A stretch of DNA of 54,266 nucleotides from Candidatus Tenderia electrophaga (GTDB lineage: Bacteria; Pseudomonadota; Gammaproteobacteria; Tenderiales; Tenderiaceae): assembly GCA_001447805.1 (NCBI GenBank), contig CP013099.1, positions 3,588,235-3,642,500 on the forward strand. Direction: 5' to 3'. Positions within the stretch are counted from its first letter, which is position 1. Each line of letters opens with the position of its first letter. The translations under genes and the position numbers were made by a program. Below the pieces are notes generated by a model. It was not told where the DNA came from. It saw nothing but the letters and a program-made list of their open reading frames with translations, and did not search any database. This document shows positions 13,752 to 49,453 of this stretch, piece by piece.

Positions 13752-13765
13752 AGGGGGGCGGTGTG

Positions 13766-14503: not shown

Positions 14504-14546
14504 CCGTTATCTCCTAGTGATTTTATCTCGCCAAATGAGATGAGAT

Positions 14547-14566
14547 GGCCGCCTCAGGGCGGCCTT
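14547..14566 (+). terminator. Weak terminator-like or processing hairpin between conduit genes
   Basis: GGCCGCC (14547-14553) and GGCGGCC (14558-14564) form a 7-bp stem with loop TCAG, followed by TTCTCAATCT rather than a T run. It could attenuate transcription or protect the upstream mRNA in the 153-nt gap before the copper lipoprotein gene. Confidence 0.45.
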
Positions 14567-14656
14567 CTCAATCTAAGGGTCGGGATAGCAGGCTGGCGTA
14601 AAGCGACGGAATGTGCCAGCGGTAAGTTGTGAAATTTACTGTTGAAGGTGACGATG

Positions 14657-16162: not shown

Positions 16163-16202
16163 CCTGTTGGCGGAATGTCCAAAAATTAGTGTATAGTGCG
16201 GA

Positions 16203-16230
16203 CGACTGCCATCGGTTTCGATGGCAGTCG
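16203..16230 (+). promoter_or_regulatory. 12-bp perfect hairpin in the intercistronic gap
   Basis: CGACTGCCATCG (16203-16214) and CGATGGCAGTCG (16219-16230) form a perfect 12-bp stem with a GTTT loop. It is followed by ATCTATTTC, not a proper T run. It buries an in-frame ATG at 16221, supporting the downstream start at 16266. A role in mRNA processing or partial termination is likely. Confidence 0.6.
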
Positions 16231-16265
16231 ATCTATTTCGGAGCCCAATTGTAAGATCGGTCGCT

Positions 16266-32556: not shown

Positions 32557-33177
32557 ATGCTCAATATCGCCAATCTGGAATGCGTGCGCGGGGACAGGCA
32601 GCTCTTTTCCGACCTCTCCTTCGCCATGGACGGGGGCAGTCTGCTGCACGTGCACGGCGCCAATGGCAGCGGCAAGACCACCCTGCTGCGTGCCATCGCC
32701 GGCTTGGTGTTGCCGGAGGCCGGCGCGATCCAATGGAACGGGGTTTCCACCCGCAAGCTGGGCGAGGACTTCAACCGCGAGCTGCTCTACCTGGGTCATC
32801 ACGACGGTCTCAAATTCGAGCTCACCGGTTATGAGAATCTGAATATTTTTGCCAGATTGAGCGGTTTCAATATCAGTGCGCGCCAGGTGGAGGTGGCCCT
32901 GAAACGCATGGGATTGGCGCGCTGCGTGGAACTTCCGGTGAAAGTGCTGTCTCAAGGACAGAAGAAGCGGGTGGCCTTGGCGCGCCTGTTGTTGCAGCCC
33001 GCCAGGCTCTGGATCCTGGACGAGCCCTTTGTGGCCCTGGACGTGGCGGCGGTGAGCCTGTTGCTGGAATTGATCCAGCAGCATGTGGCCGACGGCGGCA
33101 TGGTGATCCTGACCACGCATCAGGCGGTGGATGTGGACGTGGGCCAATTGCAGCACCTGCATTTGGGCGAGCACTGA
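32557..33177 (+). CDS. ccmA: Cytochrome c maturation ABC ATPase CcmA (System I)
   Basis: A 206-residue ATPase with Walker A GANGSGKTTL, signature LSQGQKKRV, Walker B LWILDEP and an H-loop in LTTHQAVD. With CcmB, CcmC and CcmD it releases haem-loaded CcmE from the membrane complex. The gene starts the nine-gene ccm operon, 3 nt before ccmB. ATG 32557 has AAGG just upstream. Confidence 0.95.
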   Translation: MLNIANLECVRGDRQLFSDLSFAMDGGSLLHVHGANGSGKTTLLRAIAGLVLPEAGAIQWNGVSTRKLGEDFNRELLYLGHHDGLKFELTGYENLNIFARLSGFNISARQVEVALKRMGLARCVELPVKVLSQGQKKRVALARLLLQPARLWILDEPFVALDVAAVSLLLELIQQHVADGGMVILTTHQAVDVDVGQLQHLHLGEH

Positions 33178-33180
33178 GCG

Positions 33181-33849
33181 ATGTTCGCCGCGCTGAAGTG
33201 TATTATCGGCCGCGACCTGACCCTGGCCATGCGCCATCGCTCCGATGTCTTGACGACGGTGTTCTTTTTCATCATCGTCGTCTCCCTGTTTCCGCTGGGG
33301 GTGGGGCCGGAGGCCGAGTTGTTGCGCGCCATGGCCGGGGGGGTGGTGTGGGTGGCGGCGCTGCTGGCCTCCATGCTGTCGTTGACGCGCCTGTTCGCGG
33401 ACGACTATAACGACGGCACCTTGGAGCAGTTATTGCTGGTGCCCCAGCCCTTGTCGCTGTTGGTGCTGGGTAAGATCGTGGCCCACTGGATTATCTCGGG
33501 CCTGCCGCTGGTGTTGATGGCGCCCTTGCTGGGACTGCAGTTCGGCCTTGGCGGTGACGCCCTGCTGATGCTGGTGCTGACCCTGCTGCTGGGCACGCCG
33601 GTGCTGAGCCTGATCGGCTCAATCGGCGCGGCCCTGACCCTGGGTCTGCGTGGCGGCGGGGTGTTGGTGTCGCTGTTGGTGTTGCCGTTGTACATTCCGG
33701 TGCTGATCTTCGGCGCCGGGGCGGTGGAGGCCAGCGGCGCCGGTCTGGGTGCGGAGGGGCACCTGTCGTTGCTGGGGGCGATACTGATCCTGGCCCTGTT
33801 GCTGACACCCTGGGCCTCGGCGGCGGCACTCAGGATCTCGATAGAGTAA
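33181..33849 (+). CDS. ccmB: Cytochrome c maturation permease CcmB
   Basis: A 222-residue integral membrane protein with six hydrophobic segments. The sequence MFAALKCIIGRDLTLAMRHR and the motif LFADDYNDGTLEQLLL are typical of CcmB, membrane partner of CcmA in the haem-CcmE release complex. It follows ccmA by 3 nt and precedes ccmC by 21 nt. Confidence 0.95.
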   Translation: MFAALKCIIGRDLTLAMRHRSDVLTTVFFFIIVVSLFPLGVGPEAELLRAMAGGVVWVAALLASMLSLTRLFADDYNDGTLEQLLLVPQPLSLLVLGKIVAHWIISGLPLVLMAPLLGLQFGLGGDALLMLVLTLLLGTPVLSLIGSIGAALTLGLRGGGVLVSLLVLPLYIPVLIFGAGAVEASGAGLGAEGHLSLLGAILILALLLTPWASAAALRISIE

Positions 33850-33870
33850 TTAAAAGACATAACAAGAAGT

Positions 33871-34629
33871 ATGGCGATTAACTGGTTTAAATATTCGGCA
33901 CCGTCCAGCTTTTACCCCTTGGCGGGCAAGCTCGCCAAGGGCTTTGCCGTGGTCTCGGTCATTCTGTTGGTGATCGGTTTGTACATGAGTTTTTTCGTCG
34001 CGCCCACCGATTATAAACAGGGCGAGGGCTACCGCATCATGTTCATCCACGTGCCGGCGGCCTGGATGTCCATGTTCATCTACGTGGTCATGGCCGGCTG
34101 GGCCGCGGCGGGCATGATCTGGCGCACCCGCCTGTCATCCATGATGGCCTCCGCCCTGGCCCCCACCGGCGCCATGTTCACCTTCATCGCCCTGTGGACC
34201 GGCGCCCTGTGGGGCAAGCCCATGTGGGGCGCCTGGTGGGTGTGGGATGCGCGCCTGACCTCCGAATTGATCCTGCTGTTTTTGTACATCGGCTTCATGG
34301 CGTTGGAATCGGCCATCGACGATCCGCGCCGTGCCGCCCGCGCCAGCGGCCTGTTGGCCCTGGTGGGGGTGGTCAATGTGCCCATCATCTATTACTCGGT
34401 GCAGTGGTGGAATACCCTGCATCAGGGTGCGTCCATCAAAATGGGCGAGGGCGGCATGGAGACCAGTATGACCGACATCATGCTCTGGACCCTGCTGATC
34501 ATGACTTTCGCCTGCTGGTTCTATACCCTTGCCGTGGCTCTGACCCGGGTGCGCAGCATCATCCTGGAGCGCGAGCGCAATACGGTGTGGGTGAAAGAGA
34601 TGTTGCAGGAGGAAAACGCTCATGGCTGA
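33871..34629 (+). CDS. ccmC: Haem exporter/handler CcmC
   Basis: A 252-residue protein with six transmembrane segments and the tryptophan-rich WWD motif WGAWWVWDARLTSELIL, through which CcmC holds haem and attaches it to CcmE. Two conserved periplasmic histidines are in MFIHVPAAW and NTLHQGAS. It overlaps ccmD by 8 nt. Confidence 0.96.
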   Translation: MAINWFKYSAPSSFYPLAGKLAKGFAVVSVILLVIGLYMSFFVAPTDYKQGEGYRIMFIHVPAAWMSMFIYVVMAGWAAAGMIWRTRLSSMMASALAPTGAMFTFIALWTGALWGKPMWGAWWVWDARLTSELILLFLYIGFMALESAIDDPRRAARASGLLALVGVVNVPIIYYSVQWWNTLHQGASIKMGEGGMETSMTDIMLWTLLIMTFACWFYTLAVALTRVRSIILERERNTVWVKEMLQEENAHG

Positions 34630-34786
34630 GTGGTTTGCGATGGGCGGGCACGGTACTTACATCTGGGGGTCGTTCGCCGTGACGGCCCTGTTCATGATCG
34701 GCGAGGCGCTGCTGGTGGTGCGGCGGCGACGAACTTTGGTGCAACGGCTGGGTCGTATGATTCGTATGAATTCCGAGGTGAAGTAA
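34622..34786 (+). CDS. ccmD: Small haem exporter protein CcmD
   Basis: A 54-residue protein starting MAEWFAMGGHGTYIWGSF, with one transmembrane helix (AVTALFMIGEALLVV) and a basic cytoplasmic tail. This is the standard form of CcmD, which stabilises the CcmABC-CcmE complex. Its ATG is inside the end of ccmC and its TAA is immediately followed by the ccmE ATG. It is shorter than most automated ORF thresholds and easily missed. Confidence 0.93.
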   Translation: MAEWFAMGGHGTYIWGSFAVTALFMIGEALLVVRRRRTLVQRLGRMIRMNSEVK

Positions 34787-35239
34787 ATGAGGGCGAGACA
34801 CAAGCGCATGATGTTCATCGTGGTCGGGCTGGCGGGCCTGGGGGTGGCTGCGACGCTGATCCTGAGCGCTCTGCAGAGCAATATCAATCACTTTTTCAGT
34901 CCCACCGAGGTGGCCGCCAATCAGGCGCCCCAGGATCGCACCTTTCGTCTCGGCGGCCTGGTGGAGGTGGGCAGCGTGCAGCGCGAGGACGACGGCCTGA
35001 CGGTGCACTTCAATGTCACCGACAACGCCGAAGTGGTGGGCGTCACCTATACCGGGATTCTCCCTGATCTGTTCCAGGAGGGCCAGGGGGTAGTGGCCCA
35101 GGGTAAACTCGGCAGCGGCGGCGTATTCATGGCCGACGAAGTGCTGGCCAAGCATGACGAGACCTATATGCCGCCGGAAGTGGCCGAGGCGCTGGAAAAG
35201 GCGGAACAACAAAAAACATCCTCACAAGGAGGTATCTAA
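34787..35239 (+). CDS. ccmE: Periplasmic haem chaperone CcmE
   Basis: A 150-residue protein with an N-terminal signal anchor, an OB-fold and the covalent haem-binding His123 in VLAKHDETYMP. The downstream Tyr is also conserved. It receives haem from CcmC and delivers it to CcmF. The His form (not Cys) is present. The start follows the ccmD stop without a gap; the stop overlaps ccmF by one base (TAATG). Confidence 0.96.
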   Translation: MRARHKRMMFIVVGLAGLGVAATLILSALQSNINHFFSPTEVAANQAPQDRTFRLGGLVEVGSVQREDDGLTVHFNVTDNAEVVGVTYTGILPDLFQEGQGVVAQGKLGSGGVFMADEVLAKHDETYMPPEVAEALEKAEQQKTSSQGGI

Positions 35240-37245
35240 TGATTCCCGAGATAGGCCATTTTGCCCTGATTCTGGCGCTGTGTCTGGCCCTGGTGCAGGG
35301 GATCATCCCCATTGCCGGTGCTCAACTCAATCTGCGTTCCTGGATGGCGGTGGCACGCCCGGTGGCCCAAGGGCAGTTCATGTTTCTGGTGATCGCCTTC
35401 GGCTGTCTGGTGTATGCCTTCGTCAATGACGATTTCTCGGTGCTCTACACCGCATCCCACTCCAATTCGCTATTGCCGGTGCAGTATAAAGTCGCCGGTG
35501 TCTGGGGCGGCCACGAAGGCTCGCTGTTGCTATGGGGCATGATGCTGGGTCTGTGGACAGCGCTGGTGTCGGTATTCAGTAAGAAACTGCCGGATGAGAT
35601 GGTGGCGCGCGTCATCGGGGTGATGGGGCTGATCAGTGTCGGTTTCATCCTGTTCATGCTGCTGACCTCCAATCCCTTCGACCGCTTGCTGCCGGCGGCC
35701 CCCGACGGTCGCGATCTGAATCCGCTGTTGCAGGACCCCGGGCTGGTGATCCATCCGCCCATGCTCTACATGGGCTATGTGGGCTTTTCCGTGGCCTTCG
35801 CCTTTGCCATCGCCGCCCTGCTGGGCGGGCGTCTCGACGCCGCCTGGGCGCGCTGGTCGCGACCCTGGACCATTGTCGCCTGGGCCTTTCTCACCGTCGG
35901 TATCGCCCTGGGCTCCTGGTGGGCCTACTACGAACTGGGCTGGGGCGGCTGGTGGTTCTGGGACCCGGTGGAAAACGCCTCCTTCATGCCTTGGCTGATG
36001 GGCACGGCCTTGATCCATTCCCTGGCGGTGACGGAAAAACGCGGCGGCTTCAGGAGTTGGACCGTATTGCTGGCCATCTTCGCCTTTTCACTCAGCCTGC
36101 TGGGGACCTTCCTGGTGCGCTCGGGCGTGCTGACCTCGGTACATGCCTTTGCCACCGATCCGGAGCGCGGCGTGTTCATCCTCGGCTTTCTGGTGGTCGT
36201 GGTCGGTGTTTCGCTGTTGCTCTACGCTTGGCGTGCGCCCAAGATCGGTCTGGGCGGCAAGTTCGATCTGGCCTCCAAGGAGACCATGCTGCTGAGCAAC
36301 AATGTTCTTCTGGCGGTGGCCGCGGCCATGGTGCTGTTGGGCACCTGTTATCCCCTGTTTGTAGATGCCCTGGGGCTGGGCAAGGTCTCAGTGGGGGCAC
36401 CCTACTTCAATGCGATGTTCGTGCCGCTGATGGTGCCGCTGGTGTTCCTGATGGGCTTGGGTCCCATCGCGCGCTGGAAAAAGGCCAGTCTGCCGGACAT
36501 GATGGTACGGCTGAAGTGGGCCGCGGCGGTGAGCATCGCCACAGCCATTCTGGTGCCCTTCGCCATGGGTGAATGGGTGTCACTGGCGGCGCTGGGTATG
36601 TTGATGGCGGGCTGGATTATCGCCACCGCCGCCTACCACACCTACAGCCGCTTCAAGTCCACCAAGCCGGACCAGCCCTGGGGGCTGCGCCTGAAGGCGA
36701 TTCCGGCCGGTTTCTTCGGTATGCATCTGGCGCACATCGGGGTGGCGGTGGCCATCATCGGCGTCACCTTGGTGACTAACTACGAGACCGAGAAGGACGT
36801 GCGTATGGATATCGGCGATACGGTCGACGTGGGCGGTTATACCTTCCGCTTCGACGGCGTAATCGCGACCAAGGGGGCCAATTATACCGCTAACCAGGGC
36901 ATGATCCGGGTCCTACGCGACGGCCATGAAGTGGAAACCCTGCGTCCGGAGAAGCGTATCTATACGGTCCAGACCATGCCCATGACCGAGGCGGCCATCG
37001 ACACCAGCGTCTGGCGCGATATTTACGTCTCTCTGGGTGAGCCGGTCAGCGGCGGCGCCTGGAGCGTGCGGGTCTATCACAAACCCTTTGTCGTATGGAT
37101 CTGGGGCGGGGCGGTGTTGATGGCCTTGGGCGGTATCCTGGCGATTTGCGACAAGCGCTACCGTGTCATGGCGCGGCGCGACAGCAAGATTAAGGCCGAG
37201 TCGCCCCTGGCGGCCGCCGGCAAACTGGCGACGGAGAAGAGCTGA
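35239..37245 (+). CDS. ccmF: Cytochrome c haem lyase subunit CcmF
   Basis: A 668-residue polytopic protein, normal length for CcmF, with the WWD motif GWGGWWFWDPVENASFMPWL and conserved periplasmic histidines in KVAGVWGGHEGSLLLW and VIHPPMLYMGY. It ligates haem to apocytochromes together with CcmH/CcmI. It shares one base with the ccmE stop and one with the ccmG start. Confidence 0.97.
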   Translation: MIPEIGHFALILALCLALVQGIIPIAGAQLNLRSWMAVARPVAQGQFMFLVIAFGCLVYAFVNDDFSVLYTASHSNSLLPVQYKVAGVWGGHEGSLLLWGMMLGLWTALVSVFSKKLPDEMVARVIGVMGLISVGFILFMLLTSNPFDRLLPAAPDGRDLNPLLQDPGLVIHPPMLYMGYVGFSVAFAFAIAALLGGRLDAAWARWSRPWTIVAWAFLTVGIALGSWWAYYELGWGGWWFWDPVENASFMPWLMGTALIHSLAVTEKRGGFRSWTVLLAIFAFSLSLLGTFLVRSGVLTSVHAFATDPERGVFILGFLVVVVGVSLLLYAWRAPKIGLGGKFDLASKETMLLSNNVLLAVAAAMVLLGTCYPLFVDALGLGKVSVGAPYFNAMFVPLMVPLVFLMGLGPIARWKKASLPDMMVRLKWAAAVSIATAILVPFAMGEWVSLAALGMLMAGWIIATAAYHTYSRFKSTKPDQPWGLRLKAIPAGFFGMHLAHIGVAVAIIGVTLVTNYETEKDVRMDIGDTVDVGGYTFRFDGVIATKGANYTANQGMIRVLRDGHEVETLRPEKRIYTVQTMPMTEAAIDTSVWRDIYVSLGEPVSGGAWSVRVYHKPFVVWIWGGAVLMALGGILAICDKRYRVMARRDSKIKAESPLAAAGKLATEKS

Positions 37246-37769
37246 TGCTGCGTTATCTGGTGCCCCTGGTGATTTTTGCCGTGCTGGCGGGGTTTCTCTA
37301 TATCGGCCTGAGCCTGAATCCGCAGGCGGTGCCTTCGCCCCTGATCGACAAGCCGGCGCCCAGCTTTGAGTTAAGTCAGTTACACAGCCCGGCACAGACC
37401 GTTTCGCGTGAGACCCATCTGGGCAAGGTCTGGCTGCTTAACGTGTGGGCCTCCTGGTGTGTGTCCTGTCGCCAGGAGCATCCTCTGTTGATGCAACTGG
37501 CGCGCAGCGGCGAGGTCCCCATCGTCGGTCTGAATTACAAGGACACCCGCGCAGAGGCCGTCGGCTGGCTGGAGGATTTCGGCGATCCCTATACCGTCAG
37601 CGGCTTTGATGTGGACGGCCGCGTGGGCGTGGATTACGGCGTCTACGGCGTACCCGAGACCTATGTCATCGACAAGCAGGGCGTGATTCGCCACAAGCAT
37701 ACCGGGCCGGTGACCGTGGAGGCGCTGCGCAATGAGATCCTGCCCCTAGTAAGGAAATTGAACGGATGA
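37245..37769 (+). CDS. ccmG: Thiol:disulfide oxidoreductase CcmG/DsbE
   Basis: A 174-residue membrane-anchored thioredoxin-fold protein with one N-terminal helix and the active site WCVSC, plus GVYGVPETYVID containing the cis-proline. It keeps apocytochrome CxxCH cysteines reduced for haem attachment. The E. coli protein has WCPTC, so the intervening dipeptide differs. It shares its start with the ccmF stop (TGATG). Confidence 0.94.
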   Translation: MLRYLVPLVIFAVLAGFLYIGLSLNPQAVPSPLIDKPAPSFELSQLHSPAQTVSRETHLGKVWLLNVWASWCVSCRQEHPLLMQLARSGEVPIVGLNYKDTRAEAVGWLEDFGDPYTVSGFDVDGRVGVDYGVYGVPETYVIDKQGVIRHKHTGPVTVEALRNEILPLVRKLNG

Positions 37770-38245
37770 TGAGTAAAGTAATTGCAACGGTGCTGTTGCT
37801 GACGGCGCTGGGGTCGGCGCAGGCCGACGAGGCGGAATACACGAGCGGTGACCCGGTGATGCACAATCGTGTCATGGGCGTATCGGAAGAGCTGCGCTGT
37901 CTGGTATGCCAGGGGCAGTCGCTGGCCGATTCCAATTCCGAATTCGCCGTCGATATGCGTCAGCAGATTCAGGAGTTGATGGAAGAGGGCATGACCGACC
38001 GCGAAGTGGTGGAATTCATGGTGGAGCGCTATGGCGATTACGTGCGCTACCGGCCGCCGCTGAAGTCGACCACCGTGCTGTTGTGGTTCGGTCCGGCGCT
38101 GTTGCTGGGCCTGGGGATCGGCATTCTTTATTTCAACGTGTTGCGGCGCAAGAAACAGATTCAGGATGTACCTCTGTCCGCCGAGGATCAGCGCCGTGCC
38201 GCCGAGATGTTAAAACAGAACGAGTCGGGGGACGGTAAGGCATGA
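37766..38245 (+). CDS. ccmH: Cytochrome c maturation protein CcmH (CcmH/CycL)
   Basis: A 159-residue protein: signal peptide (cleavage after AQA), the redox motif LRCLVCQGQSLADS that handles apocytochrome thiols, a three-helix domain and a C-terminal membrane anchor (LLWFGPALLLGLGIGILYF). It overlaps ccmG by 4 nt. As a single-domain CcmH it works with the separate CcmI encoded next. Confidence 0.95.
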   Translation: MMSKVIATVLLLTALGSAQADEAEYTSGDPVMHNRVMGVSEELRCLVCQGQSLADSNSEFAVDMRQQIQELMEEGMTDREVVEFMVERYGDYVRYRPPLKSTTVLLWFGPALLLGLGIGILYFNVLRRKKQIQDVPLSAEDQRRAAEMLKQNESGDGKA

Positions 38246-39528
38246 CAGTGTTTTGGATTGTGGTCGGCTGCCTGGTGGTAGCCGCGTTGTTGTTTGTCGT
38301 GCCGCCGCTGTTGCAGCGCAAGGCCAAGGCCGAAGTGGAGCGCGCCGCGCTCAATGTGTCGATCTATAAAAACCAGCTGCAAGAGCTGGAAGACGATTTG
38401 GCCAACGGCGATATCAGTCAGGAATATTACGACGGCAGTCGCGAAGAAATACAACGGCGCCTGCTGGAAGATACCGCCGTCGCCCAGAGTGATATCCGCG
38501 ACGGCAGCAAGGGGCTCAATGCCGGGGTGGCGGTGGTGACCGCGGCGGCGGTGCCGGTGCTGGCGGTGACTCTGTATTTCAATCTGGGCAGCCTGGAGGC
38601 CATGAATCCCGAGCAACAAATGGCTCAGCAGGCGGCGTCGCCTCACGGCGATGAAACCGACATGGCGGCCCAGATCGAGATGATGGTCGGGCGCCTGGCG
38701 CAACGGCTGCAGGACAACCCGCAGGATATCGAAGGCTGGGTCATGCTGGGGCGGTCCATGTCGGTGCTGGGGCGTTATGACGAGGCGGTGCAGGCTTACG
38801 AAAACGCCATCCGCTTTGCCGGCAATGACCCCAATGTGCTCACCGATTATGCCGACGCCCTGGCCATGGCCGGCAATCAGAGTCTGGAAGGCAAGCCGCT
38901 GGAGCTGCTGCAAAAGGCCTTGTCCATCGACCCCAACAACCAGAAGGCCCTGTGGCTCATCGGGACCGCCTTGTTTGAGCGCGGTGATTTTGCCGGCGCC
39001 ATCGAGCATTGGTCTCATTTGTTGGATCAGTTGCCGCCCGGCTCGGAAGATGCCGATGTGATGCGCGCCAATATCAAAGAGGCCGAATCCTATCGTCAGC
39101 GCCAGCTGGCCGGTGAGTTCGGCCCGGTACCGCCGCAGCAGTCTCTGCCCGAGGTTCAGGCCGAGACGCAAACCGCCACGGCCCCGGCCCAGATCAGCGG
39201 CCGGGTGAGCCTGGCCGCCGGGCTACGCGATAAGCTGTCGCCGGACGCCACCCTGTTCGTGTTCGCCCGCGCCGTCAACGGTCCGCCTATGCCCTTGGCC
39301 ATCGTCCGCGCCCGGGCCGGCGAGCTGCCGCTGGAGTTCAATCTGGACGAGAGCATGGCCATGATGCCGAGTATGAGTCTGGCCAATTTCAATCAGGTGG
39401 TGGTCGGTGCCCGTATCTCGGAAAGCGGCAACGCCATGCCCCAAAGCGGCGACCTGCAAGGCATGACCGAGGCGGTCGCGGTGGGCACGGACGGGCTGGA
39501 GATCGTCATCGATTCTGTGGTGCCCTGA
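38242..39528 (+). CDS. ccmI: Apocytochrome chaperone CcmI (CycH)
   Basis: A 428-residue protein with two N-terminal transmembrane helices around a cytoplasmic loop, then a periplasmic TPR domain (LAQRLQDNPQDIEGWVMLGRS, YDEAVQAYENAIRF, LLQKALSIDPNNQKALWLIG) and a C-terminal beta-rich domain found in long CcmI forms. It binds the C-termini of apocytochromes and delivers them to CcmF/CcmH. It overlaps ccmH by 4 nt and ends 9 nt before the TlpA-like gene. Confidence 0.94.
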   Translation: MTVFWIVVGCLVVAALLFVVPPLLQRKAKAEVERAALNVSIYKNQLQELEDDLANGDISQEYYDGSREEIQRRLLEDTAVAQSDIRDGSKGLNAGVAVVTAAAVPVLAVTLYFNLGSLEAMNPEQQMAQQAASPHGDETDMAAQIEMMVGRLAQRLQDNPQDIEGWVMLGRSMSVLGRYDEAVQAYENAIRFAGNDPNVLTDYADALAMAGNQSLEGKPLELLQKALSIDPNNQKALWLIGTALFERGDFAGAIEHWSHLLDQLPPGSEDADVMRANIKEAESYRQRQLAGEFGPVPPQQSLPEVQAETQTATAPAQISGRVSLAAGLRDKLSPDATLFVFARAVNGPPMPLAIVRARAGELPLEFNLDESMAMMPSMSLANFNQVVVGARISESGNAMPQSGDLQGMTEAVAVGTDGLEIVIDSVVP

Positions 39529-40153: not shown

Positions 40154-40474
40154 ATGAGAGCGAAAACCAGTGTCAGCCTGTTCACCCTGTTGCTCGCCCT
40201 GGGCGGTTTCCTGAGCGCCGGCGGGGCCATGGCGGCCGATCCGCGTAACGGCGCCAAACTCTACAATCAGCACTGTTCCAGTTGTCACGGTGCGCGCGGC
40301 CAGGGCGCCATGCCCGGCACGCCCGATTTCAGCCGCGGCGAGGGCCTGCGGGTAGCCAACGCCTCACTGCTGACGGTGATCGAGAACGGGTCAGGGGTGA
40401 TGCCGGCTTATCGCGGTCTGCTCAGCACCCAGGATATCTTGGACGTCATTTCCCATCTGAGAACCTTCCAGTAA
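40154..40474 (+). CDS. Small monohaem cytochrome c
   Basis: A 106-residue protein with signal peptide (cleavage after AMA) and one class I haem motif, HCSSCHG, at about residues 40-46. A later Met in GSGVMPAYRG is the likely sixth ligand, giving a His/Met high-potential haem. The C-terminal helix ISHLRTFQ closes the fold. Its stop overlaps the next propeller gene by one base (TAATG), which implies co-expression and perhaps partnership. Confidence 0.92.
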   Translation: MRAKTSVSLFTLLLALGGFLSAGGAMAADPRNGAKLYNQHCSSCHGARGQGAMPGTPDFSRGEGLRVANASLLTVIENGSGVMPAYRGLLSTQDILDVISHLRTFQ

Positions 40475-41601
40475 TGCGCTGGCGGTACATGCTAATTACC
40501 GCCGCGCTGCTGGCGGGATGCTCCGACACGCCGCCGCCCGAGGCGCCGGCGGTGGCAAGCGCGGCGGCCGCGCTTGAGATTGACGACCCGTGGCAAGTCA
40601 TCGACGCCTTCGAGGTCGGGCGTGATGTCTACGTGCGCGCGCTGGCGTTAGAGCCCGGGGCCGACCGGCTCTGGGTGGGCACCAGCCTGGGCGTGAACGA
40701 GGTGGATCTGACCGATCAGTCGCTGCGCAATACCTTTACCCGTGCCGACGGGCTGGCCAACGAATATGTGTTTTCCATCTTCGTCGACAGCGGCGGCTAC
40801 ACGTGGATGGGCACCAACGGCGGCGGCGCCTCGCGCTACAAGGACGAGCAGTGGCAGGTGTTCTTTCCCATGCACGGTCTGGCCGATTATTGGGTCTACA
40901 GTTTCGCCCAGCAGGACGACGGTACGGTCTGGATCGGCACCTGGGCCGGTGCCAATGAGTGGGATCCGGACAGCGGCGAATTCAAGACCTACTATGACGA
41001 GCTGGTCAACGAATGGGTCTACGGCATCGGTGTCGATTCCAAGCAGCGCGTCTGGTTCGGCACCGAGGGCGGCGTCTCCATGTTCGATGGTGAAAACTGG
41101 CAGGCCTGGACCCACAGGGACGGCCTGGGTGCCGCCAATCAGGACAACCTGCCTATCAGTCTCAACACGGGCTTGGGTACCCGCTCGCGCCACGACCTGA
41201 ATGTGATGGCGGATGGCCAACCGACCTATAACCCTGATTACGTGTTCTGTATCCATGTAGACAAGCAGGACGGGGTATGGGCCGGCACCTGGGGCGGCGG
41301 GGTCAGTCGCTTCGACGGCGAGCAGTGGCGCAATTACAGCGTCGACGACGGTCTGGCCGGCGCGCTGGTGTATAGCATCGCCGAGGCCGATAACGGGGAT
41401 ATGTGGTTCGGCACCAACAAGGGCCTGAGCCGCTTTGATGGCGAGCATTGGTTCAATTACGGCCGCGAGGACGGACTGCTTTCCGAGCATGTCTACAGCA
41501 TCGCGCTGATCTCGCCCGACGAGGTCTGGGTCGGGACTCGCGGCGGCGTCACGCGCTTCGGCCGCGCTGTGGCGCAACAAGAGGCAGGTAAGGCAGAATG
41601 A
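40474..41601 (+). CDS. Lipoprotein beta-propeller of two-component-regulator propeller type
   Basis: A 375-residue lipoprotein (lipobox LLAGC, Cys16). It is composed of repeats with the pattern VWIGTxxGxxxxD...F..DGL, for example DRLWVGTSLGVNEV, YTWMGTNGGGASRY, VWIGTWAGANEW, VWFGTEGGVSMF and MWFGTNKGLSRF. This is the Reg_prop repeat that normally forms the periplasmic sensor of hybrid kinases. Here there is no kinase, response regulator or transmembrane signalling part. It is translationally coupled to the monohaem cytochrome upstream and to a similar propeller downstream (ATGA). Confidence 0.86.
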   Translation: MRWRYMLITAALLAGCSDTPPPEAPAVASAAAALEIDDPWQVIDAFEVGRDVYVRALALEPGADRLWVGTSLGVNEVDLTDQSLRNTFTRADGLANEYVFSIFVDSGGYTWMGTNGGGASRYKDEQWQVFFPMHGLADYWVYSFAQQDDGTVWIGTWAGANEWDPDSGEFKTYYDELVNEWVYGIGVDSKQRVWFGTEGGVSMFDGENWQAWTHRDGLGAANQDNLPISLNTGLGTRSRHDLNVMADGQPTYNPDYVFCIHVDKQDGVWAGTWGGGVSRFDGEQWRNYSVDDGLAGALVYSIAEADNGDMWFGTNKGLSRFDGEHWFNYGREDGLLSEHVYSIALISPDEVWVGTRGGVTRFGRAVAQQEAGKAE

Positions 41602-42836
41602 AATTCAATCCAATATTCGGGGCCATCGCCGTGCTGTTCGGTGCGGCGGTGATTGTCGGTGCCTATCAGCTGGGCCAGCAGGGCGCTGAGCCCGCCGCAG
41701 CCCAGCCACCGCCACCGAGCAGTGCGGGTACGGCGACGGCGGAGCCGAGCCGGCAGCCGCAGCAGGACGCGGCCCTGTTTCCCGACGCCGTCCAAGCCAA
41801 TGCGCCGCGCTTTAGCCATTTTCGCGTCGGCAACCGCAACGTCAAGAGTATTTACGCCGACGGTCGCTATGTCTGGGTCGGCACCTCGGGCGGTGTGATT
41901 CGCTATGACACCGAGCACGATGATTACGAGTTGTTCAATAACAAAAACTCGGGCCTGCTCTCCAACGGCATTTTTCATATCAGCCGCCTCGATCACCGCA
42001 TGGCCATCGGCACCTACGGCGGCGGTCTGGCGCTGTTCGACCCCGAGGCCGGCAGTTGGCAGATCGTTAATATCCCCCAGGGACTGGCGGATCAATTCGT
42101 CTACGACGTGATGAAACTGGATAACGGCGACGTCTGGATCGCCACCTGGTCCGGCGCCAACCGGGTCCGCAACGGTGACTTTGACAACCCCGAGGCCTGG
42201 GAGACCTTCACCGTAGAGAATACCCACGGCGGCCTGCCCAACCCCTGGGTGTATGGCGTCGAGGAGGGCGCCAACGGCGATATCTGGTTCGCCACCGAGG
42301 ACGGTTTGGCGCGCTATCGCGACGGTCAGTGGCAGAACTGGCAACACTCGGACGGCTTGGGGGCGGATTACGAGGTGGTCAAGGACGCCATCGAATTCAA
42401 GAGCGATCCGGGCCAGGCCTCCATGCACCATTCGCGGCAGAAAGATGAACAAGGGCTGCAAAACGTGAAGGTGGCGTATAACCCCAACTATGTCATTTCC
42501 ATGCAGGTGGAAGAGGACGGTACGGTCTGGGCCGGCACCTGGGGCGCCGGGCTGTCACGCTTTCGCGACGGCGAGTGGAAGAATTTTACCTCGCTGGACG
42601 GCTTGCCGGCGGATCATATCTTCATGCTCTATCTCGATCCCCAGGATAATCTCTGGATCGGCACCAGCAAGGGCCTGGCGCGGTTTGATCGCGACAGCGA
42701 GACGTTTTCGGTCAGAACCATGAATGACGGGCTTTACGCCCAGAATGTGTTCTCCATGAGCAACGGCCGCGACGGGGATTTGTGGATCGGCAGCTTCGGC
42801 GGCGTTGCGCATATCGAACATGGCTGGAACCGATAA
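41598..42836 (+). CDS. Membrane-anchored beta-propeller protein, partner of the preceding propeller
   Basis: A 412-residue protein with an uncleaved-looking N-terminal helix (FGAIAVLFGAAVIVGAYQLG), a Pro/Ala/Gln linker and Reg_prop repeats: VWVGTSGGVIRYD, MAIGTYGGGLALFD, VWIATWSGANRV, IWFATEDGLARY, VWAGTWGAGLSRF, LWIGTSKGLARFD and LWIGSFGGVAHI. About seven blades are visible, so the propeller may be complete. It overlaps the preceding lipoprotein gene by 4 nt. No enzymatic motif is seen. The pair probably forms a double-propeller assembly on the periplasmic side. Confidence 0.85.
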   Translation: MKFNPIFGAIAVLFGAAVIVGAYQLGQQGAEPAAAQPPPPSSAGTATAEPSRQPQQDAALFPDAVQANAPRFSHFRVGNRNVKSIYADGRYVWVGTSGGVIRYDTEHDDYELFNNKNSGLLSNGIFHISRLDHRMAIGTYGGGLALFDPEAGSWQIVNIPQGLADQFVYDVMKLDNGDVWIATWSGANRVRNGDFDNPEAWETFTVENTHGGLPNPWVYGVEEGANGDIWFATEDGLARYRDGQWQNWQHSDGLGADYEVVKDAIEFKSDPGQASMHHSRQKDEQGLQNVKVAYNPNYVISMQVEEDGTVWAGTWGAGLSRFRDGEWKNFTSLDGLPADHIFMLYLDPQDNLWIGTSKGLARFDRDSETFSVRTMNDGLYAQNVFSMSNGRDGDLWIGSFGGVAHIEHGWNR

Positions 42837-42858: not shown

Positions 42859-45315
42859 GTGAAGAGTCTGGGAATCCGCCTGGCCCTGATTCTTTCCTCC
42901 GTGCTATTGGTATTGGTACTGCTGGCCGGTGTGTTGATCGAACGCCAGCTGACCCGCGCCATTCACAACGAAGAGGTCGATCAGGCCAAGAGCCATGCCC
43001 AAACCCTGTTGGCCAGTCTGCGCATCCTCATGCTCAACGGTCAGGGGGCGCTGGCGCGGGAATGGTTGGACAGCATGCACGGCGCCCCCGGCATCATCGA
43101 CATCGAGGTGCTGCGCCGTAATGGCCGCGAGGCCTTTACCGATCTCAGCACCTTAAAGCGAGTCAACGATTTTCTCGGCGAAGCGGTGTTCGAGCGCCAG
43201 CCGACTCCGCCGCATCACGTGGATCAGCCCGCCCTGGGCGCGTTTAACCGAGCGCTGCAAGGCGAAGTGGCCCTGGATCTGCGTTTTGATGATGAGATCA
43301 CCGTGTTGCAGCCCATCGAGGCCAGTAGCGAGTGCCTGACATGTCACGGTTACGATCCCAACCCCCTGCGCGGTGTGCTCAAGCTGAGCCTGTCGCGCGA
43401 AAAGGGCCTGGCGCGCATCCAATCCATGCGTGTCAGTCTCTGGGCCATCGCCGCCCTGCTGGTGGTGATTATCGGCTTGACGGTGCTGGCGGTGTTGCGC
43501 GTCAGCGTGCTCAAGCCCGTGAACCGGCTCAAGGACGCCATTATGCGGGTTGGTGAGCGCCAAGTGGAACTGCCCACCCACTGGCGCGATGAGCTGGGCC
43601 AGGTGGCGACGGTATTCAACGAAATGCAGCACCAGCTGGTGGCTACTGAAACCCGCATCCGCGCGGTCAGCGAAAACGCCTTCGACGCCATTATCACCGC
43701 CGACGAACAGGGCGTCATCGACAGCGCCAATCATGCGGTGGAGAAGATGTTCGGTTACCCGCCCGGCGAGCTGATCGGTCGCAATGTGGCCATGCTCATG
43801 CCCGAGCCCTATCGCGACGAGCATGACCGTTACATCGCCAAGTATCTGATGACCGGCAAGGGGCGTTTGATCAACAACCGCGCCGAGGTGGTGGGGCAGC
43901 GCAAGGACGGTACCACCTTTCCGCTGGAGGTCGCCCTGAGCGAAATGTTTATCGGCGCGCGCAGATACTTTGTGGCGGTGGCGCGCGACATCACGGAAAA
44001 CAAACGCCAGACCGCGGCACTGCAGCACCAGGCCCTGCACGACGCGCTGACCGAGCTGCCCAACCGCAGCCTGTTGTCCGACCGCATTCGCCAGAGCATT
44101 CTGCTGGCCCAACGCGAGCATCACGAGCTGGCCCTGTTGGTGATGGATCTGGATCGCTTCAAGGACATCAACGATACCCTCGGGCATCAATATGGCGATC
44201 TGGTGCTGCAACAGATCGCCGAGCGTATGCGTCAGGCCCTGCGCGAGTCCGACACCATCGCCCGCCTGGGCGGCGACGAGTTCGCCATCCTGTTGCCCAA
44301 CACCGGTCTGAACCAGGCCAGGGCCATTGCCGAGAAGCTGCTGCGCGTCACCGAAGAGCCGATCCTGATCGGCGATCAAATGCTACACGCCGGCGCCAGT
44401 ATCGGCATTACCCTCTACCCCCAGCACGGTGAGGATGAGGTGACGCTGCTGCAGCGCGCCGACGTGGCCATGTATATGGCCAAGCGCCAGCACTTGGGGG
44501 CGGCAGTCTACGATCCTTCGTCCGACCAGCATAGCCTGCGCAACTTGGCCTTGCTGGGCGAGCTGCGCGGCGCCATCGAGCGGGATCAACTGATACTCCA
44601 TTTCCAGCCCAAGGTGGATCTGCGCAGCGGCAAGGTGTACGGCGTCGAGTCATTGGTGCGCTGGCAGCATCCCGAACACGGTCTGATGTACCCGGACGAA
44701 TTCGTGCCGCTGGCGGAGCAGACCGGCCTGATCGCGCCGCTGAGCCTGTGGGCGCTGAAGACCAGCCTGCGCACCTGCGCCCGTTATCGGTCCGGCGATA
44801 TGGATCTGGATGTGGCGGTGAACCTGTCGGTGCGCAATCTGCAGGATCTGCGCTTCCCCGACAAGGTGGCCCAGCTGCTCGATGAAAACTGCGGCGAACC
44901 CGGCCGCCTGCGGCTGGAGATTACCGAAACCGCCATCATGGCCGACCCGGCCCGCGCCCTGGATGTGCTCAAGCGTCTCAGCGTCATGGGGGTCAAACTG
45001 TCAATCGATGACTTTGGTACCGGTTACTCTTCACTGGCACACCTGAAGCAGATGCCGGTGGACGAACTCAAGATCGACAAGCAGTTCGTCATGGGCATGC
45101 TGGAGGATGAAAGCGATGCCGTGATCGTGCGCTCCATCATCGACCTGGCCCACAACATCGGCATCAAGGTGGTGGCCGAAGGGGTGGAAAGCCAGCTGCT
45201 TTACCAGCGGCTCAAGGAGATGGGCTGTGACGCGGTGCAGGGCTATTACATGTGTCCGCCGGTGGCGGTGGACGATCTAATCGAATGGGTGAAATGCTCG
45301 CCTTGGCGGATATAA
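42859..45315 (+). CDS. c-type-haem sensor diguanylate cyclase/phosphodiesterase (periplasmic haem domain-HAMP-PAS-GGDEF-EAL)
   Basis: An 818-residue protein. TM1 (~8-27) and TM2 (~193-214) bracket a periplasmic domain with one haem motif, CLTCH (159-163), in ECLTCHGYDPNPLRG. HAMP (~215-265), PAS (~270-385), GGDEF (~395-560) and EAL (~575-815) follow. GGDEF is intact (RLGGDEFAILLP) with an inhibitory RESD five residues before it. The phosphodiesterase keeps ESLVRW, EITETAIM, DDFGTGYSSL and AEGVES, so both activities are plausible. It would read periplasmic redox state or a gas ligand and set c-di-GMP. Start is GTG 42859. It ends 1 nt from the convergent NHL gene. Confidence 0.92.
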   Translation: MKSLGIRLALILSSVLLVLVLLAGVLIERQLTRAIHNEEVDQAKSHAQTLLASLRILMLNGQGALAREWLDSMHGAPGIIDIEVLRRNGREAFTDLSTLKRVNDFLGEAVFERQPTPPHHVDQPALGAFNRALQGEVALDLRFDDEITVLQPIEASSECLTCHGYDPNPLRGVLKLSLSREKGLARIQSMRVSLWAIAALLVVIIGLTVLAVLRVSVLKPVNRLKDAIMRVGERQVELPTHWRDELGQVATVFNEMQHQLVATETRIRAVSENAFDAIITADEQGVIDSANHAVEKMFGYPPGELIGRNVAMLMPEPYRDEHDRYIAKYLMTGKGRLINNRAEVVGQRKDGTTFPLEVALSEMFIGARRYFVAVARDITENKRQTAALQHQALHDALTELPNRSLLSDRIRQSILLAQREHHELALLVMDLDRFKDINDTLGHQYGDLVLQQIAERMRQALRESDTIARLGGDEFAILLPNTGLNQARAIAEKLLRVTEEPILIGDQMLHAGASIGITLYPQHGEDEVTLLQRADVAMYMAKRQHLGAAVYDPSSDQHSLRNLALLGELRGAIERDQLILHFQPKVDLRSGKVYGVESLVRWQHPEHGLMYPDEFVPLAEQTGLIAPLSLWALKTSLRTCARYRSGDMDLDVAVNLSVRNLQDLRFPDKVAQLLDENCGEPGRLRLEITETAIMADPARALDVLKRLSVMGVKLSIDDFGTGYSSLAHLKQMPVDELKIDKQFVMGMLEDESDAVIVRSIIDLAHNIGIKVVAEGVESQLLYQRLKEMGCDAVQGYYMCPPVAVDDLIEWVKCSPWRI

Positions 45316-45316
45316 A

Positions 45317-46402
45317 CTATTCTGATTGCTGCCCGGGGCTGTCTGTATCGAGTCCAATCGGCTTGTAAATATCCACCTTGCGGAAGAACTGGTCGGCGAT
45401 ATAGACCCGACCGTCCTCATCCACGTCGATGCCCGCCGGCAGCATGTAATTGCCCGGCGCGCTGGTCTGGCCGCGCTGGCCGATGACCATCAGCAGTTCT
45501 CCTTGCGGGGTAAAGATCTGGGCGTTGCCGAAGGCGGTATCAACGACGTAGACATTGCCGTGCGCGTCGGTGCTCACCCCTTTGGGACTGAAAAACTGGC
45601 CCGGGTAGCGGCCGATGCTGCCGAAGCTGAATTTGTGCGCGCCGTTCTCGTCGAAGGCCTGGATGCGGAAATTGCCCTTGTCCACCACATACACCGTGCC
45701 GTCGCTCGAGCTGCTGATCTGCAAGGGCAGATTGAACTGACCGTCGGCGTTACCGCGCGTGCCGATGGTGGCCAGATGTTCGCCGCTGCGGGCATCGAAG
45801 ATGAACAGATGATGCGCCTGGGTATCCACGCCGCCGGTATCGATGACATAGACCTTGCTACCGTCCGGCGAGAGCGCCACCCCGGCGGGACGCTTGAACC
45901 ATTCCTGACCGCCGATAAAGCGGCGAAAATGACCCTCCGCATCGAACACCACGATGCGCCGCGCACTGACATCGGCGACGAATACCTCGCCCTGGGCGGA
46001 GATGTCGATGCCCACGGGCTTGAACAGTTGGCCGGGTTTTTCGTCACCGAACTGTGCGTAGCGCTGGCCGGTGATATCGAACAGGACCACGGCGCGTTGC
46101 ACCGTGTCGGTGACGTAGACACGGCCGTTGCGCACCGCCACGCCGTAAGGCTTGACCAGCCCCTTGATATCGTCCACCGCACCGGTAGCGTAACGGCGCA
46201 GCTTGGTGGCGGTGGTGACCGGTTCCACATTGGTGTTGTAGCGCAGCGAGCGCTCGAAAATGAAACGCGCTTCGTCCGGCGCTGCGGGATAGACCGGCGC
46301 TTCAAAGCTCTCTTTGGGCGGCGCGCTGCTGCAGGCCGCCAAGGCCAGCGGCAACAACGATAACAGCAGGCGTTTGAGGGACGGGCTTACTTGATATGAC
46401 AT
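45317..46402 (-). CDS. NHL-repeat beta-propeller lipoprotein next to a pentahaem cytochrome
   Basis: A 361-residue lipoprotein (lipobox LALAAC, Cys24) with six NHL blades: LVKPYGVAVRNGRVYVTD, LFKPVGIDISAQGEVFVAD, FKRPAGVALSPDGSKVYVID, NLPLQISSSSDGTVYVVD, FFSPKGVSTDAHGNVYVVD and LPAGIDVDEDGRVYIAD. It resembles the two NHL lipoproteins at 16826 and 18199. Its start overlaps the end of the pentahaem cytochrome gene by 16 nt, so the two form a small operon and probably a complex. Confidence 0.9.
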   Translation of the reverse strand: MSYQVSPSLKRLLLSLLPLALAACSSAPPKESFEAPVYPAAPDEARFIFERSLRYNTNVEPVTTATKLRRYATGAVDDIKGLVKPYGVAVRNGRVYVTDTVQRAVVLFDITGQRYAQFGDEKPGQLFKPVGIDISAQGEVFVADVSARRIVVFDAEGHFRRFIGGQEWFKRPAGVALSPDGSKVYVIDTGGVDTQAHHLFIFDARSGEHLATIGTRGNADGQFNLPLQISSSSDGTVYVVDKGNFRIQAFDENGAHKFSFGSIGRYPGQFFSPKGVSTDAHGNVYVVDTAFGNAQIFTPQGELLMVIGQRGQTSAPGNYMLPAGIDVDEDGRVYIADQFFRKVDIYKPIGLDTDSPGQQSE

Positions 46403-47133
46403 GTTTCACATAGCCGCTCGGCGCCGGTTCTCAACAACAGGTTGACGTCGGGGTTGTGAACATTGTGACAGGTGGCGCATTCGACCTTGTTGTCGTAGAT
46501 CTTGACGCCGTTGTCAAAACCGTATTCGTTATCCGGCGGGCGGAAGTCGATGTCTTTCGCATTCAGGCCGGCGTATTCCATGGAGATGGGGTGGTCGTTT
46601 TGCAGATCGGTGCCGATGTGTTTGATCTCAATGCTGTGAGCGGCCACGCCGTTGTGGCACTTGCCGCAGTTCATCAAGCTGTTGCCGCCGTTCAGGCGCA
46701 GGTGCAGAGAGGCATCCTCGCTGCTGTTCCAGGTATCGGGCTTGAACACGGTCATGTCCACCGCCAGGGTGCCGTCATGGCAGGACAGACACAGCAGGCT
46801 GATGGGGCTGGGGGTCTTGACCTTATTGTTGAGGGTACGCGAGTCATACAAATCGTAGACCGTATCCACCGCCGGCTGAAAACGATTCCAGCCCGGAATG
46901 CCGCCCAGTTCGGTGGTGTCGGCGCCTTCCTTTTCCGGCGGTAGATGGCAGTAGACGCAGGGATTGCCATAATCGGCGAAGGCTACGCCCGGCATGGCGA
47001 CCACGCCGGCGCGCTCATTCAGGCCGGTGAAGTCGTGCTTGGAGCCGAGGATGGTGCCGGCCTGCAGCGGGGCCATGACCGCCAGTGCCAGGGCGGTCCC
47101 ACCAATCAGGTTTTTTATCAGGCATTTCAACAC
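46387..47133 (-). CDS. Pentahaem c-type cytochrome (doubled CxxCH family)
   Basis: A 248-residue exported protein with signal peptide (cleavage after LQA) and five haem motifs: CVYCH, CLSCH, CGKCH, CATCH and a C-terminal CETCH. Context SKHDFTG, SCHDGTLAVD, DLQNDHPIS and TCHNVHN matches the tetrahaem protein at 9533 and the start of the 11-haem protein, with an extra haem (NCGKCHNG) inserted before DLQNDHP. Start is GTG 47133; no ATG fits in frame before the signal peptide. Divergent from the polyhaem gene at 47280 across a 146-bp gap containing GGGG-N6-CCCC (47215-47228). Confidence 0.88.
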   Translation of the reverse strand: MLKCLIKNLIGGTALALAVMAPLQAGTILGSKHDFTGLNERAGVVAMPGVAFADYGNPCVYCHLPPEKEGADTTELGGIPGWNRFQPAVDTVYDLYDSRTLNNKVKTPSPISLLCLSCHDGTLAVDMTVFKPDTWNSSEDASLHLRLNGGNSLMNCGKCHNGVAAHSIEIKHIGTDLQNDHPISMEYAGLNAKDIDFRPPDNEYGFDNGVKIYDNKVECATCHNVHNPDVNLLLRTGAERLCETCHIK

Positions 47134-47279
47134 AGTCGAGAACCATCTCTAAAGGCACAACTCTAACGCTCAAGGATACTAGCCCCTGCTTGGGTAGCGC
47201 AAATGATTATTTTAGGGGAAAATACCCCGCTTCTGGATAGTGGCCTGGCCTGCGCGGGCGGGTGAGGATAAGGCGACGC

Positions 47280-48488
47280 ATGCGGTGTTCTCTGTATAAT
47301 TTCCTGGTTTTAATCCCATTTTTTTCGATTTCCACAGTCGCGACTGCGGTCGAACCGGTGTCGCCGGCCGAGGCCGCCAAGGTCTATGAGGAAAACTGTC
47401 GCGTTTGCCATGGCGATGGCGGCGACGGCCAGACCCGCGCCCGTTTCGGGCTCAATCCTCAGCCGCGCGATTTCACCACCGCCGGGGCGGCTGCCGAACT
47501 TAATCGCGAACGCATGATTAGCTCCGTGGTGCAGGGCCGCGAAGGCACGGCCATGGTCGCTTGGAAGGACCGTTTGAGCATGGCCCAGATCGAGGGTGTG
47601 GTGGATTACATTCGTACCAATTTCATGCCCTTGGCCCCCGCCGAAGAGGCGCTGGCGACGACCGATCCTCGCCTGCAACTGGGTCGCCAGATCTACGAAC
47701 AGAACTGCCGCGTTTGCCATGGCGACCGTGGCAATGGTGCCACCTGGACCAACTCGGTATTGAACCCGCCGCCGCGCAATTTTACCTCGCCTCAAGCGCG
47801 CCGCATTCTGACTCGCAAACGCATGCTGGCCTCGGTAACCTTCGGGCGTAAGCAAACCGCCATGATGCCGTTTGCCACCCGCCTCTCGGACGATGAGATC
47901 GGCGCCGTAGTGGACTACATCCGCGAGGTCTTTATGAAAGGACCGGTGGTGGCCGATGCCGGTATGACCGATCTGTCCGGTCAAGGCGCCATGGGCGGTC
48001 ACGCCGGCGGCGGTCATCCGCGCGCGCCGTCATCCATCGGTGCCCACGGCATGGCGCCGGGCATGGCGCAGTCGCAGGAGCCGGTGGCCGAGGTGGATAT
48101 GAGTGCCGGTTTTGCCGGCGAGCTAAAGGGCGATTTCGCCCGCGGTCGCCGCATTTATCTGAACAATTGCAGCACCTGCCACGGCGTACGGGGAGACGGT
48201 TTGGGGCCGCGGTCTTCCTTCATTCAGCCCAAGCCGCGCAATTTTCTCCATGTGGAATCGCGCACTACCCTGAATCGGCCGGCCCTGTTTCGTGCCATCG
48301 GTATTGGTAAGCCGGGCACGGTGATGCCGGCCTGGAGCAAGGTATTGTCGGCCCAGCAAATTGCTGACGTGGCCGAATTCGTGTTTCAGGATTTTATTCA
48401 TCCCAATCCGGATGACATTGAGCCGCGCGTCGACCTGGATATGGATGCCGACGCGGCACCCATGGCGGATAAAAAAAAAGCGCCTTAA
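47280..48488 (+). CDS. Trihaem cytochrome c with three class I-like domains; 5' half of a probable frameshifted hexahaem gene
   Basis: A 402-residue protein with signal peptide (MRCSLYNFLVLIPFFSIS..., cleavage near ATA) and three tandem monohaem domains: NCRVCHGD, NCRVCHGD and NCSTCHGV. Each is followed by a signature of the form [LI]xPxPR[DN]F (LNPQPRDF, LNPPPRNF, IQPKPRNF) and a Met-containing segment (VAWKD, MMPF, VMPAW) that could give Met ligation. Between domains 2 and 3 is a Gly/His/Met-rich linker. Translation ends just after an A9 run (48471-48479); slipping by -1 there continues into the next ORF, which has three more such domains. ATG 47280 is preceded by GAGGATAAGG. Confidence 0.86.
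   Translation: MRCSLYNFLVLIPFFSISTVATAVEPVSPAEAAKVYEENCRVCHGDGGDGQTRARFGLNPQPRDFTTAGAAAELNRERMISSVVQGREGTAMVAWKDRLSMAQIEGVVDYIRTNFMPLAPAEEALATTDPRLQLGRQIYEQNCRVCHGDRGNGATWTNSVLNPPPRNFTSPQARRILTRKRMLASVTFGRKQTAMMPFATRLSDDEIGAVVDYIREVFMKGPVVADAGMTDLSGQGAMGGHAGGGHPRAPSSIGAHGMAPGMAQSQEPVAEVDMSAGFAGELKGDFARGRRIYLNNCSTCHGVRGDGLGPRSSFIQPKPRNFLHVESRTTLNRPALFRAIGIGKPGTVMPAWSKVLSAQQIADVAEFVFQDFIHPNPDDIEPRVDLDMDADAAPMADKKKAP
48471..48479 (+). other. A9 tract, candidate -1 slippery site joining two cytochrome ORFs
   Basis: Nine consecutive A in frame as AAA AAA AAA GCG end the upstream ORF seven bases later (TAA 48486-48488). A -1 slip gives AGC GCC TTA ATT GAC and stays open to 49453. The downstream frame has a stop at 48470-48472, directly before the tract, so the fusion works only through it. 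A GC-rich inverted segment, AGCGG to CCGCT, lies 20-40 nt downstream and might stimulate slipping. Confidence 0.55.
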
Positions 48489-48523: not shown

Positions 48524-49453
48524 GTGGAGATCGCCGCCGGCAGTGACGCGCGGACGGACTTTGAAAAGGGCCGCGATCTCTACAACTTCTACTGCTACTT
48601 CTGCCACGGCTATGCCGGTGACGCCAAGACCCTGGCCGCCACCTATTTGTCACCGCCGCCGCGTGATTTTACTGCCACGCCAATCGAAGAGCTAACGCGG
48701 GCGCGCATGATCAAATCCGTCAGCGACGGGCGTCCGGGGACCGGCATGGCCGGCTTCAAGCAGACCTTGAACACCGTACAAGTCGAGCGGGTGGTGGATT
48801 TTATCCGCCAGGCGTTCATGGGCGATGACAAGCCCAACACCCGCTATCACACCGCCGGCAACGGTTGGCCCGATCACGCGCGTTACGCCATCGCCTTTCC
48901 CTTCGCCACAGGTGAGATTCCCTTGGATACGCCGGTGGCTGAACTGACATCGCGGCAGCGCCAGGGGCGTGAGCTGTTCATGGACAGCTGCATTACCTGT
49001 CATGATCGCGCCAGGGTTGAGGATGAAGGGACGGCCTGGGAGCCGCGCGCGGTGTCCTATCCGCGCAGCGGATACAGCCATCGCAGGCCCGATGCGGTAT
49101 CCGCCGCCACGCCGTATTCGCAACATGACCTGCCGCCGCAGGTGGATGACTTGTCGCCGCGGCAGCGCTTGGGCGAGTCCCTGTATCAGGATAATTGCGC
49201 CTTTTGCCATGCCGCCGACGGCAGCGGCCGGAATTGGATCGGCGCCTTTCTCGAGCCCCAACCGCGCAATCTGACGGACAAGGCGCAGATGCAGGGGATG
49301 ACCACCGAGCGTCTGCAGGCGGTGATTCGCGACGGCCTGCCCAACACCACCATGCCGGCCTGGCGCCACGTGCTGAACCGGGCGCAGATCGAGGCCGTTG
49401 CCGACTATGTGATGCATGTGTTTGTGGAAAGCGCCGCGGAAGATGCACAATAG
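48524..49453 (+). CDS. Trihaem cytochrome c lacking its own signal peptide; 3' half of a probable frameshifted hexahaem gene
   Basis: The 309-residue frame has three haem motifs, [16 protein letters not shown] and NCAFCHAA, and the domain signatures LSPPPRDF and LEPQPRNL. The only in-frame start is GTG 48524; it has no Shine-Dalgarno sequence. The product would lack an export signal, although haem attachment happens in the periplasm. The frame is open back to 48473, inside the A9 tract that ends the upstream cytochrome, and the codons between encode a natural linker. I therefore infer that it is translated as the C-terminal half of one ~724-residue hexahaem protein, by -1 frameshifting or because the tract length is wrong in this sequence. 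Confidence 0.82.

Follow-up and report, generated by a model that had tools for sequence, protein, structure and literature searches.

Among described proteins, the closest counterparts of the sensor analysed here are GSU0935 and GSU0582 of Geobacter sulfurreducens (structures 3b42 and 3b47; Pfam PF21563). In the crystal structure of GSU0935 one haem is ligated by His144 and Met60, and spectroscopy of GSU0582 and GSU0935 indicates that the Met sits on the ferrous haem, is off the haem when it is oxidised, and gives way to CO or NO (PMC8396549). The haem c of DcrA from Desulfovibrio vulgaris has been reported as a sensor of redox potential and oxygen (PMC8396549). For the wider sCache_heme kind, a preprint lists fusions to GGDEF and EAL domains, argues that the signalling proteins are NO sensors, and describes stand-alone members as looking redox-related (PMC12889525). 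A signalling-type protein of P. azotoformans, which lacks the axial Cys and probably has water as its sixth ligand, showed NO-sensor properties in that work, binding NO tightly and forming no stable oxygen complex.

'Candidatus Tenderia electrophaga' carries an undecahaem gene (Tel_16545) and a triheme/tetratricopeptide group (Tel_16515-16530) that have been reported and proposed for electron uptake (PMC5371394). We analysed a stretch of 54,266 nucleotides of its genome, hereafter the window, in which a preliminary description had pointed to a haem sensor coupled to a GGDEF-EAL enzyme. New here are a proposed identity for the sensor domain, a predicted ligand, Met58, and a conserved locus.

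Layout of the gene and its neighbourhood

The open reading frame at 42859-45315 encodes 818 residues, and its GTG is the sole start codon near the in-frame stop upstream. The protein, its parts and the surrounding genes are as follows, all in window coordinates.

32557-39528, + strand: cytochrome c maturation block, ccmA to ccmI (ORFs; block conserved in relatives; genes were named by their order and by homology with the relatives' block, not by per-gene family searches)
40154-40474, + strand: mono-haem cytochrome c, which opens the conserved core (Pfam PF13442; conserved position)
40477-41601, + strand: Reg_prop propeller 1; its N-terminus resembles that of a lipoprotein (LLAGCS) and its start codon is provisional (Pfam PF07494; conserved position)
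41598-42836, + strand: Reg_prop propeller 2 (Pfam PF07494; present in 43 of the 369 genomes sampled from the class)
42859-45315, + strand: TM-sensor-TM-HAMP-PAS-GGDEF-EAL protein, 818 aa, GTG start (ORF, Pfam, 25 orthologous loci with context plus the window)
42940-43434, + strand: periplasmic domain, residues 28-192, classed as divergent sCache_heme of the GSU0935/GSU0582 branch (profile matches to 3b47 and 3b42; 3b42 at Foldseek rank 2 with a low-confidence model)
43030-43032, + strand: Met58 codon, predicted switchable distal haem ligand (aligned with GSU0935 Met60)
43333-43347, + strand: CLTCH, predicted haem c attachment motif (Cys159, Cys162, His163; invariant in 27 of 27 close orthologs)
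43504-43641, + strand: HAMP, residues 216-261 (Pfam PF00672, 33.9 bits, cut-off 25)
43654-43998, + strand: cytoplasmic PAS, residues about 266-380 (Pfam PF13426/PF00989)
44032-44493, + strand: GGDEF, residues 392-545, with RESD I-site and GGDEF signature (Pfam PF00990, E=5.6e-49)
44560-45261, + strand: EAL, residues 568-801, catalytic motifs kept (Pfam PF00563, E=5.5e-76)
45317-46402, - strand: NHL propeller, convergent with the enzyme (Pfam NHL)
46387-47133, - strand: 5-haem cytochrome, paired with the NHL gene (Pfam Paired_CXXCH; 5 CxxCH)
47262-48488, + strand: 3-haem cytochrome (Pfam Cytochrome_CBB3 three times; conserved in many relatives)
48524-49453, + strand: 3-haem cytochrome (Pfam Cytochrome_CBB3 three times; conserved in many relatives)

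The preliminary description had placed CLTCH between two membrane helices; indeed, hydrophobic segments at residues 9-27 and 194-212 bracket the motif (residues 159-163), which is periplasmic by predicted topology. CxxCH appeared in only 0.06% of composition shuffles of the 818-residue protein, and CxxCHG is kept in 27 of 27 close orthologs, with CxxCH present in divergent ones as well; the motif is therefore not a chance occurrence. The spacing and surroundings given earlier were also correct: the enzyme's GTG follows the stop codon of propeller 2 (42836) by 22 nt, and the polyhaem genes at 46387-47133, 47262-48488 and 48524-49453 lie close by. The ccm genes, just upstream, had been overlooked in that account, as had the HAMP and PAS domains.

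Also noted before was the retention of GGDEF, its RxxD site and the EAL-type residues, and all motifs were found in the window protein: RESD (462), GGDEF (471), ESL (597), NLS (655) and EITE (687), followed in the EAL half by DDFG (717), LKIDK (737) and AEGVE (773). They are largely conserved among orthologs. The GGDEF and EAL domains thus look intact by motif, which predicts an active hybrid enzyme. The PAS-GGDEF-EAL half matches NCBIfam NF045675 (DibA) with E=4e-145 and 484.6 bits, under the 980-bit cut-off of that model, and a plasmid search returned generic GGDEF-EAL matches only.

Six nucleotides are absent at window position 43550/43551, equal to two HAMP-connector residues (GxG to G) that the other aligned close orthologs possess; this loss may weaken signal passage in the window strain, or may be a sequencing error. 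Elsewhere in the window, three 3-haem cytochromes surround a further ORF (14642-16162) in the region 13263-16865, and an 11-haem cytochrome lies at 19247-21985. These genes fit the reported Tel_16515-16530 group and Tel_16545, respectively.

The periplasmic domain and Met58

A search of the periplasmic domain against haem-sensor families, as proposed in the preliminary description, came out differently for different profiles. No Pfam model reached its own cut-off: the nearest, the Tll0287-like PF11845, scored 15.4-17.7 bits (21.5 in the best ortholog) against 24.1 bits, a figure that is a score cut-off and not a structural feature. PF21563 (Mcp40H-20_sensor) matched neither the window protein nor anything else in the window's genome, and it matches 8 of the 17 members of the wider sensor alignment. 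Searching the PDB with the single domain sequence yielded no match, and the narrow family profile alone (the sample comprised 26 close homologs and four divergent ones) found 3b42 as its best PDB match at E=0.0097. When the sensor family was combined with related chemoreceptors carrying a CxxCH domain, this bridged profile matched 3b47 (GSU0582) at E=1e-9 and 3b42 (GSU0935) at E=1.6e-8, in each structure over two stretches, one in the region of the N-terminal helix and one around the CxxCH. The alignment of the family profile with local Tll0287-like proteins is confined to the CxxCH region and therefore makes no fold claim by itself.

Two AlphaFold models, each from four closely related sequences, have low confidence (pLDDT 49 and 53), and we therefore treat their fold matches as supporting only. 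With the model that includes the TM helices and HAMP, Foldseek ranked 3b42 second and 3b47 sixth; with the sensor-only model the top matches were mostly periplasmic sensor domains, with 3b42 at rank 4. In the sCache_heme kind the haem helix is inserted between strands 3 and 4 of a single-Cache fold; these low-confidence models place a short helix at the CxxCH, between the last two strands. We class the sensor as a divergent member of the sCache_heme/Tll0287 kind, in the GSU0935/GSU0582 branch, with a predicted fold. Judged from its sequence, it is a known type that has diverged to just below current detection limits, rather than an unknown one, suggesting that the sCache_heme kind extends beyond what current Pfam cut-offs detect.

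Two further proteins carry related domains. A chemoreceptor of the window's genome (L040:6281-8293) has a related CLQCH periplasmic domain that falls below the cut-off of every Pfam haem model, and genome G314 encodes a second, more divergent haem-sensor GGDEF copy (L088:1958-3712), located away from propellers.

In a multiple alignment with chemoreceptor relatives, Met58 occupies the column of GSU0935 Met60, and the HMMER alignments to 3b47 and 3b42 agree; back-counting from Cys140 confirms a Met at position 60 of the 3b42 chain. We used the register of the multiple alignment, and not that of a simple pairwise alignment with GSU0935, which differs and does not pair Met58 with Met60. The column holds Met in all 27 close orthologs and in 39 of 40 sequences overall. 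Met58 is predicted to be a conditional distal haem ligand, a candidate that offers a testable switch; it is the single residue that would distinguish a built-in redox switch from a site open to gas binding. His46 was also considered as distal ligand and was rejected as first choice, being Gln in two close orthologs and non-His in divergent DGCs.

Conservation of the locus

In all 25 orthologous loci for which context was available, drawn from eight families of one class, the enzyme gene comes after the propeller pair and shares its strand. Propeller and enzyme are 5-70 nt apart in the window's family, except for a gap of 88 nt in one fragmentary contig; in the other families the spacing runs from 54 nt to 1.6 kb. 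Upstream, the orthologous loci have the mono-haem cytochrome, joined in most of them by a thioredoxin-like gene and the ccm block; downstream, many have the convergent NHL/5-haem pair and the two 3-haem cytochromes. The association of the enzyme with propeller and cytochrome genes thus extends far outside the window's genome. Our literature search, which missed most subscription journals, found no paper on a locus of regulator propeller, cytochrome c and c-di-GMP enzyme, and this conserved propeller/cytochrome neighbourhood is apparently undescribed.

Across 369 sampled genomes, propeller 2 was present in 43 and an ortholog of the enzyme in 20, all of them among those 43. The propeller-cytochrome locus thus also exists without the enzyme, which marks the locus as the core and the enzyme as an accessory. 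In two relatives without the enzyme (L118:6294-9689 and L125:5268-9325), other genes stand after the propeller pair and before the NHL gene; among them are what is probably another propeller lipoprotein and a 5-haem cytochrome in convergent orientation.

The haem domain is retained in 26 orthologs of those examined. Genome G212 (L120:6040-8013) has the same locus and keeps PAS-GGDEF-EAL, with the periplasmic haem domain lost in frame, and so provides a natural haem-less variant. The coupling of a haem sensor to GGDEF-EAL, as first described, gains from the homology to solved haem-loaded sensors, the intact output motifs and this conserved context; what changes is that the domain appears to be a divergent form of a known type.

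Signal, mechanism and likeness to known systems

We propose that the protein is a transmembrane c-di-GMP enzyme with a GSU0935/GSU0582-like sCache_heme input and a Met58 ligand switch, with redox as the likeliest signal and NO or another diatomic gas second; we give this reading a probability of about one half. Haem loading, the switch, the identity of the signal and the direction of the output we infer along these lines. By motif and homology, haem c would be attached through Cys159 and Cys162, and His163 would serve as proximal ligand; the motif and topology make it a sound expectation, already voiced in the preliminary description, that the enzyme would depend on a cytochrome c maturation system. 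The distal ligand to ferrous haem would be Met58, where the long helix continuing TM1 ends; oxidation would release it and NO or CO would displace it, in line with the reports on GSU0582 and GSU0935. Its capture and release would move the TM1 helix relative to the haem-bearing sheet and TM2, and HAMP and PAS would relay this movement to GGDEF and EAL, so that net c-di-GMP changes. The likeliest natural signal would be how oxidised or reduced the neighbouring cytochromes keep the periplasmic pool, followed by NO or another diatomic gas.

If the haem state does control the enzyme, electron supply through cytochromes would feed directly into a second messenger by which attachment is commonly governed, and would do so in relatives of the cathode-feeding Tenderia. 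In Shewanella, c-type cytochromes are raised by high c-di-GMP (PMC7533324), which makes a tie between this messenger and electron transfer plausible; the tuning of biofilm or attachment suggested in the preliminary description would be a further, hypothetical step. A bolder extension treats the locus as dedicated to redox sensing: the mono-haem cytochrome, both propellers and the enzyme would make up a single periplasmic sensor that gauges electron supply by way of the adjacent cytochrome pathway and sets attachment of an electron-eating bacterium to cathode or mineral. This seems rather improbable to us.

The preference for redox state as the signal is moderate, and it meets a real objection. 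For the Geobacter domains, midpoints of -156 and -251 mV are on record (PMC8396549), and Tenderia cathodes were at 310-470 mV (PMC5371394); with an equally low midpoint in the window domain, the haem would stay oxidised at such potentials. The strongest competing explanation, which we consider somewhat unlikely, is that the protein is a periplasmic NO sensor whose labile sixth ligand allows tight NO binding to alter c-di-GMP turnover, the NO coming from neighbours or from an unrecognised enzyme. The behaviour of the P. azotoformans protein (PMC12889525) and the displacement of Met60 by NO and CO in the Geobacter domains (PMC8396549) both fit this explanation, but the invariant Met58 predicts a built-in ligand. 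The distribution of nitrite reductases points the same way: NirS was found in none of the 20 enzyme carriers, compared with 73 of the 369 genomes overall (hypergeometric P=0.011, for related genomes that are not independent), and NirK above its cut-off likewise in none of the 20, about half of which have a weaker multicopper-oxidase match. The lack of canonical NirS and NirK in carriers disfavours NO from their own denitrification as the signal and mildly favours redox; it is suggestive against self-made NO and says nothing against NO from outside. In genome G000, a multicopper oxidase (C1:3390810-3391646) has a NirK match well under the cut-off and is possibly the 'possible nitrite reductase' of PMC5371394.

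It is less probable still that the haem domain mainly carries electrons for the local cytochrome pathway or plays a structural part in it, with c-di-GMP output set by the cytoplasmic PAS or other inputs. Such a role would suit the cytochrome-rich locus, the redox-related look of stand-alone members (PMC12889525) and the persistence of the enzyme in G212 after in-frame loss of the haem domain; however, the domain is coupled through TM2, HAMP and PAS in classic sensor order, and its retention in the 26 orthologs also argues against it. That CLTCH is no haem site, its cysteines being a disulphide or metal ligands of an ordinary Cache domain, would agree with the sub-threshold scores of all Pfam haem families but is very improbable given the invariant CxxCHG, the homology to structures that contain haem and have the motif in the equivalent position, and the ccm genes upstream.

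Like GSU0935 and GSU0582, the window protein has a periplasmic domain between two TMs, then HAMP, with CxxCH ahead of the last strand and a Met at the Met60 position; it differs in its Met-to-CxxCH spacing (101 residues, compared with 80) and in its predicted c-di-GMP turnover, where the Geobacter proteins have a chemotaxis output. With the DUF3365/Tll0287-like, or sCache_heme, proteins (PF11845; Tll0287, 5b82) it shares fusion to a signalling output and, in the low-confidence model, a single-Cache-like secondary structure with CxxCH between the last two strands, whereas the Cys distal ligand of Tll0287 is absent. DcrA is alike by description only, in its periplasmic haem c and cytoplasmic PAS, and differs in its chemotaxis output. 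Hybrid GGDEF-EAL enzymes with PAS, such as DibA, resemble the PAS-GGDEF-EAL half, to which the window protein adds a haem-type input.
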